IMG/VR virus record: IMGVR_UViG_3300025274_000042
Span: 1-30,027 of that record
DNA length: 30,027 nucleotides
Direction: 5' to 3' (one strand)
Source of the DNA: a virus
Shown here: in pieces, positions 4,559 to 9,112 of the stretch
How positions within the stretch are numbered: position 1 is the first letter of the stretch
Layout: each line of letters begins with the position of its first letter
The notes under the pieces: model-generated
Database searches by the model: none
Told to the model about the DNA's origin: nothing
What the model saw: only the letters and a program-made list of their open reading frames with translations
Position numbers and translations under genes: made by a program

Positions 4559-4784
4559 CTTTGAAAGCACAATAGCTATGGAAAGGAAGAGGAGATTTCC
4601 TCTGACTAAAAAACAATACAAATTATGGGAACAGTTTGTTACTGATAACTATGAAACTATCTATAGCAATAAAGATACTCATGATGTATTACATACTCCT
4701 AACAGTCCTAGATATACTGTGACTGTTTTGAGAACCGAACAATCTGGAATGCAAGAATTTCTTGAGAATTTGCTTGCAATCTAG
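4548..4784 (+). CDS. Hypothetical protein, 78 aa
   Basis: The ATG at 4548 (MTNNFESTIAMERKRRF) follows AGGA. An in-frame ATG at 4521 is less likely because it lies deeper in the previous gene without a site. The product is soluble with a basic N-terminal third (MERKRRFPLTKKQYKLW). Not recognised. The gene ends just inside the promoter that drives the replication module, so it closes the first early transcription unit. Confidence 0.68.
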   Translation: MTNNFESTIAMERKRRFPLTKKQYKLWEQFVTDNYETIYSNKDTHDVLHTPNSPRYTVTVLRTEQSGMQEFLENLLAI

Positions 4785-4802
4785 GATAAAGTGTGGTATA
4801 CT
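4774..4802 (+). promoter_or_regulatory. Sigma70-type promoter with extended -10, upstream of SSB
   Basis: TTGCAA (4774-4779), a 17-base spacer, and TATACT (4797-4802) preceded by TGG, which is an extended -10 element. Transcription should start near 4808-4810, exactly at the base of the first leader hairpin. It overlaps the last codons of the preceding gene. This is the best host-type promoter I found in the window. Confidence 0.65.
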
Positions 4803-4807
4803 GCTTG

Positions 4808-4983
4808 GACTCAAAGATATGACCTTGATATTAAAGGCAATTTCCTTGAGTCATTAAGTAGTTATGCCCTCTATCTCCATCCCTCAAGGGCTACTTAATT
4901 CAGTTTACTGAGGTGATGGGGCAACTGGCTCATAGCCCCAACTGGCTATGGTTTTATAAATACTGTTTTAAAGGAGAAATATT
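4808..4983 (+). promoter_or_regulatory. Structured 5' leader of the SSB/replication operon
   Basis: Stem 1 pairs GACTCAA (4808-4814) with TTGAGTC (4846-4852), beginning at the predicted transcript 5' end. Stem 2 pairs TTAAGTA (4854-4860) with TACTTAA (4892-4898) and, inside it, GCCCT (4866-4870) with AGGGC (4887-4891). At the 3' end two stems exclude each other: GGGGC (4918-4922) with GCCCC (4935-4939), or CATAGCC (4931-4937) with GGCTATG (4944-4950). The second is followed by GTTTTAT, a weak terminator-like tract. A 9-base repeat CAACTGGCT occurs at 4922-4930 and 4939-4947. The layout resembles an attenuator or riboregulator, or a stand-alone small RNA. Confidence 0.5.
4931..4955 (+). terminator. 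Possible attenuator/terminator hairpin before SSB
   Basis: A perfect 7-bp stem CATAGCC / GGCTATG with a 6-base loop, followed by GTTTTA. The T run is short, so it may only attenuate. It competes with the upstream GGGGC/GCCCC pairing. Confidence 0.35.
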
Positions 4984-5397
4984 ATGGCAGTAGTAGAAGG
5001 AACTGCGTATTGGGCGAGTATTAAAACACCTAATACAAGGTTTGAACCAGTATATACAGTCAATCTTGTGGTTGATGAAGATACTGCAAATGATTTTGCG
5101 TCACGAGGACACAAGATCAAACAGATGGATGAAGGTCCATCTATAATTATCAAACGTAAAGTTAATGGACCTAATGGAATGGTTCGTGTCGCACCTAGAT
5201 TATTAGATGCTGACAAGCAGGAAGTTAACTATGCTGTTGGTAACGGCTCTAAAATTAGAGTTCAGTACAATGAGTACGAAGGTACTAATAAGTTTGGAGA
5301 CTATAAAGGCTTGGATTTACAAGCTATACAAGTCCTTGATCTTATTGAGTATCGTTCAGAAGATGGTGCTGAATTACTAGATGGGGAGGAGTTCTAA
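4984..5397 (+). CDS. Phage single-stranded DNA-binding protein, T7 gp2.5-like, 137 aa
   Basis: The length, an OB-fold-like alternation of strands (AYWASIKTPNTRFEP, YTVNLVVDED, KIRVQYNEYEG) and an acidic tail ending D-G-E-E-F match the phage SSB group that includes T7 gp2.5. In T7 the acidic tail with terminal Phe contacts polymerase and primase-helicase. The product would coat single-stranded DNA at the replication fork and aid recombination. The ATG follows AAGGAG. It is the first gene after the promoter and structured leader, and its stop overlaps the next start (TAATG). I did not confirm it by alignment, but position directly before the primase-helicase supports the call. Confidence 0.82.
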   Translation: MAVVEGTAYWASIKTPNTRFEPVYTVNLVVDEDTANDFASRGHKIKQMDEGPSIIIKRKVNGPNGMVRVAPRLLDADKQEVNYAVGNGSKIRVQYNEYEGTNKFGDYKGLDLQAIQVLDLIEYRSEDGAELLDGEEF

Positions 5398-5667: not shown

Positions 5668-5704
5668 TAGAGGGTGGAGTAGTCTGCCCTCTATTTCTAG
5701 AGGG
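5668..5704 (+). promoter_or_regulatory. Three-segment RNA switch masking the primase-helicase ribosome binding site
   Basis: TAGAGGG (5668-5674), CCCTCTA (5687-5693) and TAGAGGG (5698-5704) lie in series. Segments 2 and 3 form a perfect 7-bp hairpin with a 4-base loop that hides GAGGG, the Shine-Dalgarno sequence four bases before the ATG at 5709. Segment 1 is identical to segment 3, so it can pair with segment 2 instead and free the site. This could tune primase-helicase translation to events upstream, such as ribosomes finishing the 86-aa gene. Confidence 0.55.
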
Positions 5705-5708
5705 AAAT

Positions 5709-7361
5709 ATGGATAGAAGTAATTGGGATAAACACAATCTACCCTGTCCGAAATGCGGTGGTAGTGATCCTGTCTCAACAAATAAAGATGGCTCTGGTCA
5801 TTGCTTTAGTTGTGACGCACATTGGGGAAACTATCAAGCAGCTTTGGATGGGAACATAGTAAATATGAATGCGTATAAAGAACCGAATACATTTTTAAAT
5901 TCGTACACAGGAACTTTTGGAGCTTTAACAGATCGCAATATAAGCGAAGACGTTGCCAGAAAGTATGGTGTAAGAGTTGTTTATAATAGAGAAGGCGAAA
6001 TAATAAAGCATGTCTATCCTTACTATAATAGTAACGAGATTGTATCAACTAAAACCAGAACTATAAGTACCAAAGGTTTCGTTGTTGACGGAGGTTATGA
6101 AGGTACAGGACTGTTCGGTGAACAACTCTTTGGTAAAGGTGGGAAGTATCTTACCATAACCGAAGGCGAATGTGATGCAATGGCAGTTTATGAAATGTTT
6201 GATAAGAAGTGGGCATCAGTTTCTATAAAACGTGGTGCAGCAGGTGCTGTTAGAGATATACGAGACAGTATTGAATTTGTAGAAGCATTTGATAATGTAA
6301 TCATTTGTTTTGACAACGACAAGGCAGGTCGAGAAGCAGCTAGAAAAGTTGCACGTATTATAAAACCGGGAAAAGCTAGAATAGTTTCTTTGCCTACTGG
6401 TTTTAAAGATGCTAACATCATGCTTGAAAAAGGGCAGTATGCTCAGTTTACTAGAGCATGGTGGGATGCCAAGACATATACTCCATCAGGAATTATGGAG
6501 TTATCAAGTGCTAAAGATAAATGGCTTCACAGGGAAATTAAAAAAAGCATAGCGTATCCTTACGAAGGTTTAAACAAAAAACTTTTCGGTATGAGAAAGA
6601 ATGAATTGGTTACTCTCACAGGAGGAACTGGTTTAGGTAAGTCTAGTTTTACTAGAGAACTTATTCATTATCTTATTAAAAATACAGAAGATAATGTAGG
6701 TATCATAGCTCTTGAAGAGAATTGGTTGAGAACTGCTGATGGTATTGTAGCTATAGAAGCTAATGATCGTATCTACTTAGAAGAGAAAAGAAATAAGTAT
6801 ACTGAAGAAGAACTTACTGAATTTTTTGATAAGATTATTAAAAAAGATAAGGTCTTTATTCATGCTCACTTAGGCAGCAATGATATAGATGAAATATTTT
6901 CTAAACTTAGATACATGATTATAGGTTGTGAATGTAGTTGGATAGTTATAGATCATTTACACATGCTGGTAAGTCAATTGACCGAAGGTGATGAACGTAG
7001 AGGTATTGATAATCTGATGAATCGTTTACGTTCTTTGGTTGAAGAGACAGGTGTTGGTATGTTTTTAGTATCACATCTTAGAAGAGCAGCAGGTGAAAAA
7101 GGACACGAACAAGGTATCGTAGTTTCGTTATCCCACCTCAAGGGCTCTCAAGGAATAAGTCAACTAAGTGATTGTGTAATAGCCTTAGAAAGAAACCAAC
7201 AAGCTGAAGACCCTGAAGAAGCTAACACAACTAAAGTAAGAGTTCTTAAATCTAGGTACACAGGTGATACAGGTTTGGCTTGTAGTCTACTTTATGATCC
7301 AGAAACAGGGCGTATGAGTGAAATTACAGATGAAGAAACTTTAGATGATGTACCATTTTAG
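5709..7361 (+). CDS. DNA primase-helicase, T7 gp4-like, 550 aa
   Basis: Synthesises RNA primers and unwinds DNA at the fork as a ring-shaped hexamer. The N-terminal zinc ribbon has C13, C16, C32 and C35. A TOPRIM primase centre follows, with EGECDA (E152) and FDNDKAG (D202, D204). After a linker comes the RecA-like helicase with Walker A GGTGLGKSS (K311), Walker B WIVIDH (D415) and a later SHLKGSQGISQLSD segment. The C terminus is acidic and ends V-P-F, like the T7 gp4 tail that contacts polymerase. Length is close to T7 gp4 (566). It sits between SSB and polymerase, and its ribosome binding site can be hidden by the hairpin at 5687-5704. All key motifs are present. Confidence 0.95.
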   Translation: MDRSNWDKHNLPCPKCGGSDPVSTNKDGSGHCFSCDAHWGNYQAALDGNIVNMNAYKEPNTFLNSYTGTFGALTDRNISEDVARKYGVRVVYNREGEIIKHVYPYYNSNEIVSTKTRTISTKGFVVDGGYEGTGLFGEQLFGKGGKYLTITEGECDAMAVYEMFDKKWASVSIKRGAAGAVRDIRDSIEFVEAFDNVIICFDNDKAGREAARKVARIIKPGKARIVSLPTGFKDANIMLEKGQYAQFTRAWWDAKTYTPSGIMELSSAKDKWLHREIKKSIAYPYEGLNKKLFGMRKNELVTLTGGTGLGKSSFTRELIHYLIKNTEDNVGIIALEENWLRTADGIVAIEANDRIYLEEKRNKYTEEELTEFFDKIIKKDKVFIHAHLGSNDIDEIFSKLRYMIIGCECSWIVIDHLHMLVSQLTEGDERRGIDNLMNRLRSLVEETGVGMFLVSHLRRAAGEKGHEQGIVVSLSHLKGSQGISQLSDCVIALERNQQAEDPEEANTTKVRVLKSRYTGDTGLACSLLYDPETGRMSEITDEETLDDVPF

Positions 7362-7369
7362 GAGGGAGT

Positions 7370-9112
7370 ATGAAAGAAATTGTAATTGATATTGAAACTA
7401 ATGGTTTAAAACCGGATAAGATATGGTGTATTGCAGCTAAACCTTTAGGTGAAGCTGTTGTTTCCTTCGGACCTAACAAAATAAAAGAAGGCATAGATTA
7501 TTTAAACAAAGCAGATTCGTTGATAGGTCATAACATTCTAGGCTTTGACATTCCTGTTATCAGTAAACTACATGGTATTGATTTATCAAAAACAAAGGTA
7601 ATAAAAGATACATTAGTTATGTCTCGTTTATTTAATCCTGTGCGTGAGAATGGACATGGTTTAAAAACGTGGGGATACAGAGTTAATATTCTTAAGAAAG
7701 ACCACGATGAATGGGATCGTTTTTCTAAAGAAATGCTAGAACGTTGTAAAACTGATGTACTTATAAATGAAAAGACATATCAATATCTACTGGAAGAGGG
7801 TGAAGACTTTGATGAAGAATCCTTAAAACTAGAACATGCAGTAACTTTGGTGTTAAAAGAACAGGAAGATACTGGTTTTCTTTTCAATGAGAAGGAAGCA
7901 CTTTTACTAGTGGCTTCTCTTAAAGAAAGAATGTTTGAAGTACGAGAGGAAGTTCAAAAGGTATTTAAACCTAAGATGGTAGATATAAAATTAGTAATAC
8001 CTAAACTTAAAAAAGATGGTACTTTATCCAAACAAGGTTTAACCAAAGAAGAATATGATGACCATATTAAAATGGATTGGTTAGCAGAATACAAACCCTT
8101 TATGAGACAAAAGTTACAAGAGTTTAATCTAGGTTCTCGTAAACAAATAGGAGAATATCTTACAGACTTTGGATGGAAACCAAATCGTTTTACACCTACA
8201 GGTCAACCAGTTGTGGATGAATCTTCTTTAGCTAAAGTAAAAAATATACCTGAAGCTAGTTTAATAGCAGAGTTTCTTCTGCTACAAAAGAGAATAGCAC
8301 AGATTGATTCATGGATCACAGCAGTTGATGATGATTCCAGAGTACATGGTTTTGTTATACCCACTGGTACTATAACAGGAAGAATGTCACATCGAGCACC
8401 TAACATGGCTCAAGTTCCTAGTTCAACTAGTGAATATGGTAAAGAATGTAGAGCCTGTTGGATTGTTAAAGATGGTTATAAATTAGTAGGTGTTGATGCT
8501 AGTGGATTAGAACTACGCATGTTAGCACATTACATGGACAACAAGGAGTACACAAAGGAGGTTACAGAAGGAGACATTCACACAGCTAATCAAAAACTTG
8601 CAGGTTTGAAATCAAGAGATAAAGCCAAGACTTTTATTTATGCCCTATGTTATGGTGCAGGAGATCAGAAACTTTCATCTATACTCGGTGGCAGCACTAA
8701 AGATGCTAGAAGAATTAGAGAACATTTCTTAGATAATCTCCCAGCATTTAAAAAACTTAAGAACAGAGTTGGAAAAGCAGCGAAGCGAGGCTACCTCAAG
8801 GGATTAGATGGTCGTAAGATATTTATTAGAAATGATTACGCAGCTTTAAATAGTTTACTTCAAGGTGGTGGAGCTATAGTTATGAAGAGAGCATTGATTA
8901 TGTTACAGGCTTTAATAAAACTACAAGCTTTAGATGCTAAGTTTGTTGCTAACATACATGACGAATGGCAAATGGAAGTTAGAGAAGATATCGTAGACTT
9001 CGTAGGAGAGTTAGCTGTAGGCTGTATTGAAAAGGCAGGAGAGTATTATAACATGCGTTGTCCTTTAACAGGTGAATATAAAATAGGAGGGAATTGGAGT
9101 GAAACTCATTAA
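7370..9112 (+). CDS. Family A DNA polymerase, T7 gp5-like, 580 aa
   Basis: Replicative polymerase with a proofreading exonuclease. Exo I is IDIETNG (D7, E9). Exo II is GHNILGFD (N55, D60). Exo III keeps D129, but the usual Tyr four residues before it is Arg125. Polymerase motif A is VDASGLELR (D376). Motif B is RDKAKTFIY...YG (R416, K420, Y424, Y428), and motif C is NIHDEW (H530, D531, E532). The C terminus IGGNWSETH matches the T7 ending. Y424 is equivalent to Pol I residue 762. Tyr there, as in T7, has been linked to lytic phages. At 580 aa it is about 120 shorter than T7 gp5, so the thioredoxin-binding loop is probably absent. The gene starts 8 bases after the helicase stop, with an AGGAGGG site. 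Confidence 0.95.
   Translation: MKEIVIDIETNGLKPDKIWCIAAKPLGEAVVSFGPNKIKEGIDYLNKADSLIGHNILGFDIPVISKLHGIDLSKTKVIKDTLVMSRLFNPVRENGHGLKTWGYRVNILKKDHDEWDRFSKEMLERCKTDVLINEKTYQYLLEEGEDFDEESLKLEHAVTLVLKEQEDTGFLFNEKEALLLVASLKERMFEVREEVQKVFKPKMVDIKLVIPKLKKDGTLSKQGLTKEEYDDHIKMDWLAEYKPFMRQKLQEFNLGSRKQIGEYLTDFGWKPNRFTPTGQPVVDESSLAKVKNIPEASLIAEFLLLQKRIAQIDSWITAVDDDSRVHGFVIPTGTITGRMSHRAPNMAQVPSSTSEYGKECRACWIVKDGYKLVGVDASGLELRMLAHYMDNKEYTKEVTEGDIHTANQKLAGLKSRDKAKTFIYALCYGAGDQKLSSILGGSTKDARRIREHFLDNLPAFKKLKNRVGKAAKRGYLKGLDGRKIFIRNDYAALNSLLQGGGAIVMKRALIMLQALIKLQALDAKFVANIHDEWQMEVREDIVDFVGELAVGCIEKAGEYYNMRCPLTGEYKIGGNWSETH

Follow-up and report, generated by a model that had tools for sequence, protein, structure and literature searches.

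A linker-less four-way junction with a pseudoknot in the leader of a single-stranded-DNA-binding protein gene of marine phages

Structured leaders controlling the single-stranded-DNA-binding protein (SSB) of a phage are essentially known from T4-like phages. In T4, the gene 32 protein (gp32) nucleates on a leader pseudoknot located about 67 nt upstream and spreads over UUAA(A) repeats that extend up to the ribosome-binding site (PMC535899, PMC3014915), and a review of 2010 regarded this structure as perhaps the sole viral pseudoknot used for translational autoregulation (PMC3014915). A second pseudoknot found near SSB genes is STAXI (RF01728, Weinberg et al. 2010), which occurs in Enterobacteriales and is repeated there two or three times (PMC2864571). 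Exclusive 3' structures, as well as junctions with pseudoknots, are also features of terminator/antiterminator attenuators and of junction riboswitches such as SAM-I, a four-way junction with a pseudoknot; the lineage studied here resembles them in both respects. Finally, the DUF2815 RNA motif is a conserved RNA found close to DUF2815 genes in phages, and the fold of this protein family corresponds to that of the SSB described here (4klk). In the following we describe an RNA that shares its position with the gene 32 operator and differs in architecture from that operator, from STAXI and from the junction riboswitches.

The window (the whole stretch of DNA analysed, a 30-kb viral record) belongs to a marine phage with T7-like replication genes. 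Its SSB gene (4984-5397, on the + strand like all leader features given below) encodes 137 amino acids, is preceded by the Shine-Dalgarno sequence AAGGAGA (4971-4977), and is the first gene 3' of the leader, heading a run of replication and dNTP genes that continues to about 15627. Further genes of the phage are those for a primase-helicase (5709-7361), a DNA polymerase A (7370-9112), a Cas4-type exonuclease and the two subunits of ribonucleotide reductase, and the SSB leader stands at the head of ~10 kb of co-directional genes. The downstream protein can confidently be assigned to the SSBs of the T7 gp2.5/Enc34 fold and is not a gp32 homologue. Its best fold matches are T7 gp2.5 and Enc34 SSB (E 5e-7 to 3e-5), its PHROG assignment is gp2.5-like, and no gp32 entry is present among the 50 matches listed for its fold. 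A tRNA-Tyr gene (anticodon GTA) is located near the left end of the window, at 369-451.

The leader studied is the interval between the end of the preceding gene (4784) and SSB. An earlier note on this DNA had proposed that a promoter feeds directly into a folded leader with competing hairpins. A sigma-70 type promoter is present at 4774-4802, with TTGCAA at 4774-4779, a 17-nt spacer and an extended -10 of the form TG(n)TATACT (hexamer at 4797-4802), and the RNA start predicted near 4808-4810 coincides with the base of stem 1 (see below). Promoter-like sites in the window alone are not above chance (38 found vs 63.8 expected); among 47 distinct relatives a sigma-70 promoter lies just 5' of the RNA, 81% of them scoring at least 10 vs 2.8% in shuffles, and the position of the promoter is thus conserved. 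The leader also folds better than its dinucleotide shuffles (z of -3.3 and -3.1), which bears out the proposal of a structured leader. What the earlier note overlooked is a four-way-junction core and an invariant loop at 4866-4878, and the element is larger and better supported than was then seen.

Related loci were collected from SSB homologues in IMG/VR, by scans for the common 14-mer GCCCTCTATCTCCA and with a gapped RNA pattern, and several hundred were fetched. Their leaders fall into three groups: A (10 distinct leaders, the window and its close kin), B (L008, L019 and L043) and C, which comprises 47 distinct leaders that are less than 93% identical. All 125 matches found by RNA sequence alone precede SSB, with the start codon 37-59 nt downstream, and in the fetched contigs the computed linkage of the RNA to SSB in cis is exclusive. 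Among bacterial and archaeal genomes the only match is a single contig of a Pelagibacter MAG, from which the host cannot be concluded. The nearest SSBs of cultured phages, at 44-54% identity, are those of the Pelagibacter phages HTVC103P, 104P and 115P; the covariance model described below does not detect the RNA in any of the three, and a wider SSB search revealed no cultured phage that carries it. SSB-like proteins at 74% identity (L075, L076) likewise occur without the RNA, so that it is not indispensable for SSB control.

The core of the element consists of four helices, P0, P1, P2 and X, which follow one another without linkers and form a perfect four-way junction, together with an H-type pseudoknot, Y. 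In the window, the closing helix P0 pairs TGAGTCA (4847-4853) with TGGCTCA (4926-4932), and its counterparts in relatives read TGACTCA, GAGCCA/TGGCTC or GAGCCAC/GTGGCTC. P1, which carries the conserved loop, is formed by TTAAGTAG (4854-4861) and CTACTTAA (4891-4898), replaced in relatives by CCGAGTAG/CTACTTGG, and abuts both P0 and P2 with no nucleotide between them. P2 pairs TTCAG (4899-4903) with CTGAG (4908-4912). The short fourth helix, X (GT, 4913-4914, with AC, 4924-4925), comprises 2 pairs in the window and up to 5 in most relatives; it is weak in the window, where its presence is suggested by homology. The loop of X holds the 5' strand of Y, which pairs TGGGGC (4917-4922) with GCCCCA (4935-4940) and reads GAGAGT/ACTCTC in most relatives. 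The helix consensus of group C is GAGY/RCUC for P0, AACC/GGUU for P1, UGG/CCA for P2 and YRACU/AGUYR for X; these helices abut with at most 1 bulged base, i.e. as a linker-less four-way junction, and GAGAGU in the loop of X pairs with ACUCUC just past P0 to form Y.

Conservation of this fold was examined in several ways. A first covariation scan, with no preset structure, used 40 group C leaders in an anchored alignment and compared them with null alignments simulated along the tree of these leaders; of the 9 best among about 8,500 column pairs, 6 fall in P1, P2 and X, although none of the pairs reaches significance by itself (best E 0.2). The named structure was then scored on a second alignment, of 34 leaders and made without regard to structure, where 98.5% of the cells are paired, double changes occur at 11 of the 22 pairs and not one of 500 shuffles equals it. 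Its covariation there amounts to 0.281, vs at most 0.077 when the structure is slid along the alignment. Y taken alone is paired in 97.5% of the cells of these 34 leaders, with double changes at 2 of its 6 pairs. An automatic search of both strands of the window for any zero-linker junction with a pseudoknot identified the leader as the best-scoring place in the whole window, on either strand, with a score of 66.6, while the maximum reached by 2000 dinucleotide shuffles is 58.4. Finally, a covariance model trained solely on group C leaders, with the window's lineage left out, has 4847-4940 as its sole match in the 30 kb (E 8.8e-5), also finds most of the group A and B leaders, and reports a single copy per locus.

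The loop of P1, GCCCUCUAUCUCC, is nearly identical in groups A and C and is represented in the window by the motif GCCCTCTATCTCC (4866-4878). Its 3' half is complementary to the Shine-Dalgarno sequence of SSB (UAUCUCC/GGAGGUA in group C), although the complementarity in the window is weaker (UCUCC/GGAGA, 5 pairs). The mean energy of the loop-Shine-Dalgarno pairing is -9.4 kcal/mol vs -6.9 for loops permuted in common, 7 of 200 permutations being as low. L019, in which loop and Shine-Dalgarno sequence are both changed, is suggestive as one single event: its own pair reaches -9.2 kcal/mol, the crossed pairs -6.1 and -6.2. A comparison of native with crossed pairs over all leaders gave no significant signal of coevolution (p about 0.1). 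The loop may contact the SSB Shine-Dalgarno sequence functionally; a search for a target of the loop elsewhere in the window yielded nothing convincing.

In the lineage of the window the core is overlaid by a second set of pairings. Stem 1 (GACTCAA, 4808-4814, with TTGAGTC, 4846-4852) competes with P0 for 4847-4852 and is limited to group A and, in other letters, group B. Helix Z (CCATCCCTCA, 4877-4886, with TGAGGTGATGG, 4909-4919) excludes P2 and part of Y. A terminator-like hairpin (CATAGCC, 4931-4937, with GGCTATG, 4944-4950, followed by TTTT at 4952-4955) is incompatible with Y and with the 3' end of P0. As the earlier note had claimed, two 3' stems therefore exclude each other, GGGGC (4918-4922) with GCCCC (4935-4939) on the one hand and the hairpin of 4931-4950 on the other. 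That note would have abandoned its reading had the alternative pairs lacked conservation; both are kept in all 10 distinct group A leaders, the 3' hairpin as CATAGC...GCTATG with its T-run, and so is stem 1 (ACTCAA/TTGAGT). Compensatory changes are seen in the inner part of this 3' hairpin, which reads AACUC-GAAA-GAGUU, AACCC-GAAA-GGGUU or AACUU-GAAA-AAGUU in relatives and is shortened in the window.

Because stem 1 overlaps P0 and the 3' hairpin overlaps both P0 and Y, the leader has two mutually exclusive folds: the junction with its pseudoknot, and a fold I composed of stem 1, helix Z and the terminator-like hairpin. In ViennaRNA, fold I is the minimum-energy structure at -48.5 vs -23 to -29 for the nested part of the junction fold, a gap that does not decide between the two, since neither the pseudoknot (the Y duplex accounts for about -9) nor coaxial stacking in a linker-less junction enters the comparison. 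In group B, stem 1 and the 3' hairpin have counterparts that can be recognised by eye, with no clear T-run. Most group C leaders keep junction and pseudoknot and possess neither stem 1 nor a separate 3' hairpin, but 31 of the 47 have a U-run of at least 4 within 16 nt of Y (4 expected), which leaves about one third without a U-run. The exclusive pair of Y/P0 and hairpin is hence real, but it is a lineage-specific addition to the core and is not conserved across the whole RNA family. The attenuator logic of the earlier note thus stands as regards the exclusive pair in the window's lineage, while the conserved core of the element does not include its terminator part.

In view of the fixed partnership with SSB, the short and fixed distance to the ribosome-binding site, and a pseudoknot followed by an A+U-rich linker, an arrangement that recalls T4 gene 32, we propose autogenous control by SSB. 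We tentatively regard the leader as an SSB operator that acts in cis and is most likely autogenous, and to which the lineage of the window has added a terminator layer; our confidence in this reading falls a little short of even. The dedicated promoter would yield an RNA starting at or just before P0 (in this phage at stem 1), which would fold into the linker-less junction with its H-type pseudoknot. SSB present in excess over the single-stranded DNA of the phage would then, most likely, bind this folded nucleus and spread over the unstructured A+U-rich linker and the ribosome-binding site, limiting further SSB synthesis. The conserved P1 loop could in addition pair with the Shine-Dalgarno sequence and keep the start site closed. 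In the lineage of the window, the alternative fold should stop transcription early at the terminator-like hairpin, and the junction fold would prevent the terminator from forming. The group C linkers between pseudoknot and ribosome-binding site are 74% A+U, and TTAAC repeats occur about eightfold more often than expected in the linkers of the 47 group C leaders (36 vs 4.6). The UUAAA form of T4 is not enriched in these 47 leaders (TTAAA, 4 vs 10.1 expected), and the window's own linker contains one UUAA element only. Against an SSB operator speaks the nearly invariant 13-nt loop, which exceeds the needs of a sequence-tolerant SSB. Linkers with TTAAC repeats can be seen, for example, in L082, L112 and L170.

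The similarity to the gene 32 operators of T4 and RB69 comprises a pseudoknot in the SSB leader, SSB directly downstream and, less clearly, an A+U-rich segment of UUAA type leading into the ribosome-binding site. As in gene 32, the pseudoknot lies upstream of the SSB start; Y is paired, and none of the 2000 shuffles equals the parse of the window. The differences are, however, considerable. The nucleus of the T4 operator is a simple pseudoknot of ~28 nt, whereas the RNA described here is a ~95-nt linker-less four-way junction with a pseudoknot and an invariant 13-nt loop; the repeats are UUAAC vs UUAAA in T4; and the SSB has the T7 gp2.5/Enc34 fold, unlike gp32. We claim no relation in sequence to the leader of T4, and we consider the marine RNA to be an analogue, not a homologue, of the gene 32 pseudoknot operator.

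The main rival to autogenous control is a ligand-sensing attenuator, i.e. a riboswitch-like switch of transcription whose trigger would not be SSB but, for instance, a nucleotide, a host protein or the availability of ribosomes, with the junction as aptamer and its 3' strand as antiterminator. The mutually exclusive folds at both ends of the leader in the window's lineage and the excess of U-runs past Y would both fit such a switch. A nearly invariant loop on a multi-helix junction with a pseudoknot likewise resembles an aptamer, and the presence of both ribonucleotide reductase subunits in the gene run would fit as well. However, the third of leaders without a U-run and the majority without a separate hairpin do not fit a general attenuator, and the RNA precedes SSB only, not the metabolic genes that are usual for riboswitches. 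Unlike riboswitches of the SAM-I type, it has no known aptamer core and no joining nucleotides, its terminator is not family-wide, and even at lax thresholds Rfam offers no aptamer match. We consider this explanation less probable than autogenous control.

The remaining alternatives are far less probable. A structure directly 3' of a conserved promoter that heads ~10 kb of co-directional genes might be a nascent-RNA antiterminator of the HK022 put type, acting on RNA polymerase for read-through of terminators in the long replication operon; put RNA, however, consists of two simple hairpins, whereas this element is locked to SSB at 37-59 nt from its start codon and has a Shine-Dalgarno complementarity that polymerase antitermination does not require, which makes this reading improbable. 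Slightly less probable again is the stand-alone small RNA that the earlier note had considered, an RNA of ~145 nt ending at 4955 and acting in trans via its exposed pyrimidine-rich loop: a terminator-like 3' end and an invariant single-stranded loop would suit it, but no copy away from SSB exists in any fetched contig, no site complementary to the loop was found elsewhere in the window, and most relatives have no hairpin terminator. A DNA element (replication origin or hairpin) is very improbable, for although the structure adjoins replication genes and it has been proposed that the STAXI pseudoknots near ssb genes are single-stranded DNA (PMC2864571), the conserved pairs frequently include G-U (at one P0 pair, U-G is more common than any other form, 21 of 34), the conserved promoter points into the structure and the spacing to the SSB ribosome-binding site is fixed.

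By the Rfam scans and the literature searched, the RNA is a new family of a known kind, the SSB leader RNAs, with an unusual architecture. The linker-less arrangement of P0, P1, P2 and X, the pseudoknot Y, the loop GCCCUCUAUCUCC and SSB downstream were all found. At gathering threshold Rfam detects only the tRNA in the window, and no Rfam family matches the leader of the window or of nine relatives even at E up to 5-10, in agreement with the earlier note, which had recognised no known riboswitch class. Freshwater-2 RNA (RF02980), the one candidate considered, was rejected as chance (17.6 bits vs a gathering score of 49.9, E 2.5). A cmscan of all Rfam models gave no match to STAXI, and unlike that motif the RNA is not present in tandem copies. 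No earlier description of it was found in the literature searched.

An SSB family unrelated to gp32 thus has, in marine phages, an RNA at the corresponding position that differs from the T4 operator, is more elaborate and is well conserved, which allows a direct test of whether RNA-based autoregulation of SSB arose more than once. With slightly more reserve than for the operator itself, we suggest that it represents a new class of phage regulatory RNA, in which a linker-less junction with a pseudoknot, placed where the replication operon of widespread marine phages begins, would act as a sensor (of SSB vs single-stranded DNA, or of a ligand), with an anti-Shine-Dalgarno loop that controls translation in most lineages and a terminator switch added in one. 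One RNA core would then be combined with lineage-specific expression platforms of translation type and of terminator type.

Several other leaders and gaps deserve mention. The SSB leader of HTVC115P can be drawn manually in a junction-like fold; homology of the HTVC115P, 103P and 104P leaders was nevertheless rejected, as the covariance model finds none, and for HTVC115P also because the modules common to its close relatives at this place are different ones and the drawn fold lies 5' of a separate promoter. In these HTVC115P-like phages (L195, 1090-1500, and L199-L269), a long A+T-rich gap before SSB contains other shared structured-looking modules, for example ATAC-GTAATCCTG...GGA-TTGTATGTT...AACATTC and GGTTTGAGTAGTACC...ACTACTC, upstream of a TTGAC...TATAAT promoter. 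In L076, L077, L301 and L302, whose SSBs are ~74% identical, the leader is replaced by a promoter that runs straight into a short hairpin, CTGGCTGACACAACCAG, and a T-run. In the window itself, the gap before the primase gene (5673-5708) holds a hairpin, AGAGGGTGGAGTAGTCTGCCCTCT then ATTTCTAGAGGG, which includes GCCCTCTATTTCTA, 2 mismatches from the conserved P1 loop, and adjoins the ribosome-binding site of the primase gene.
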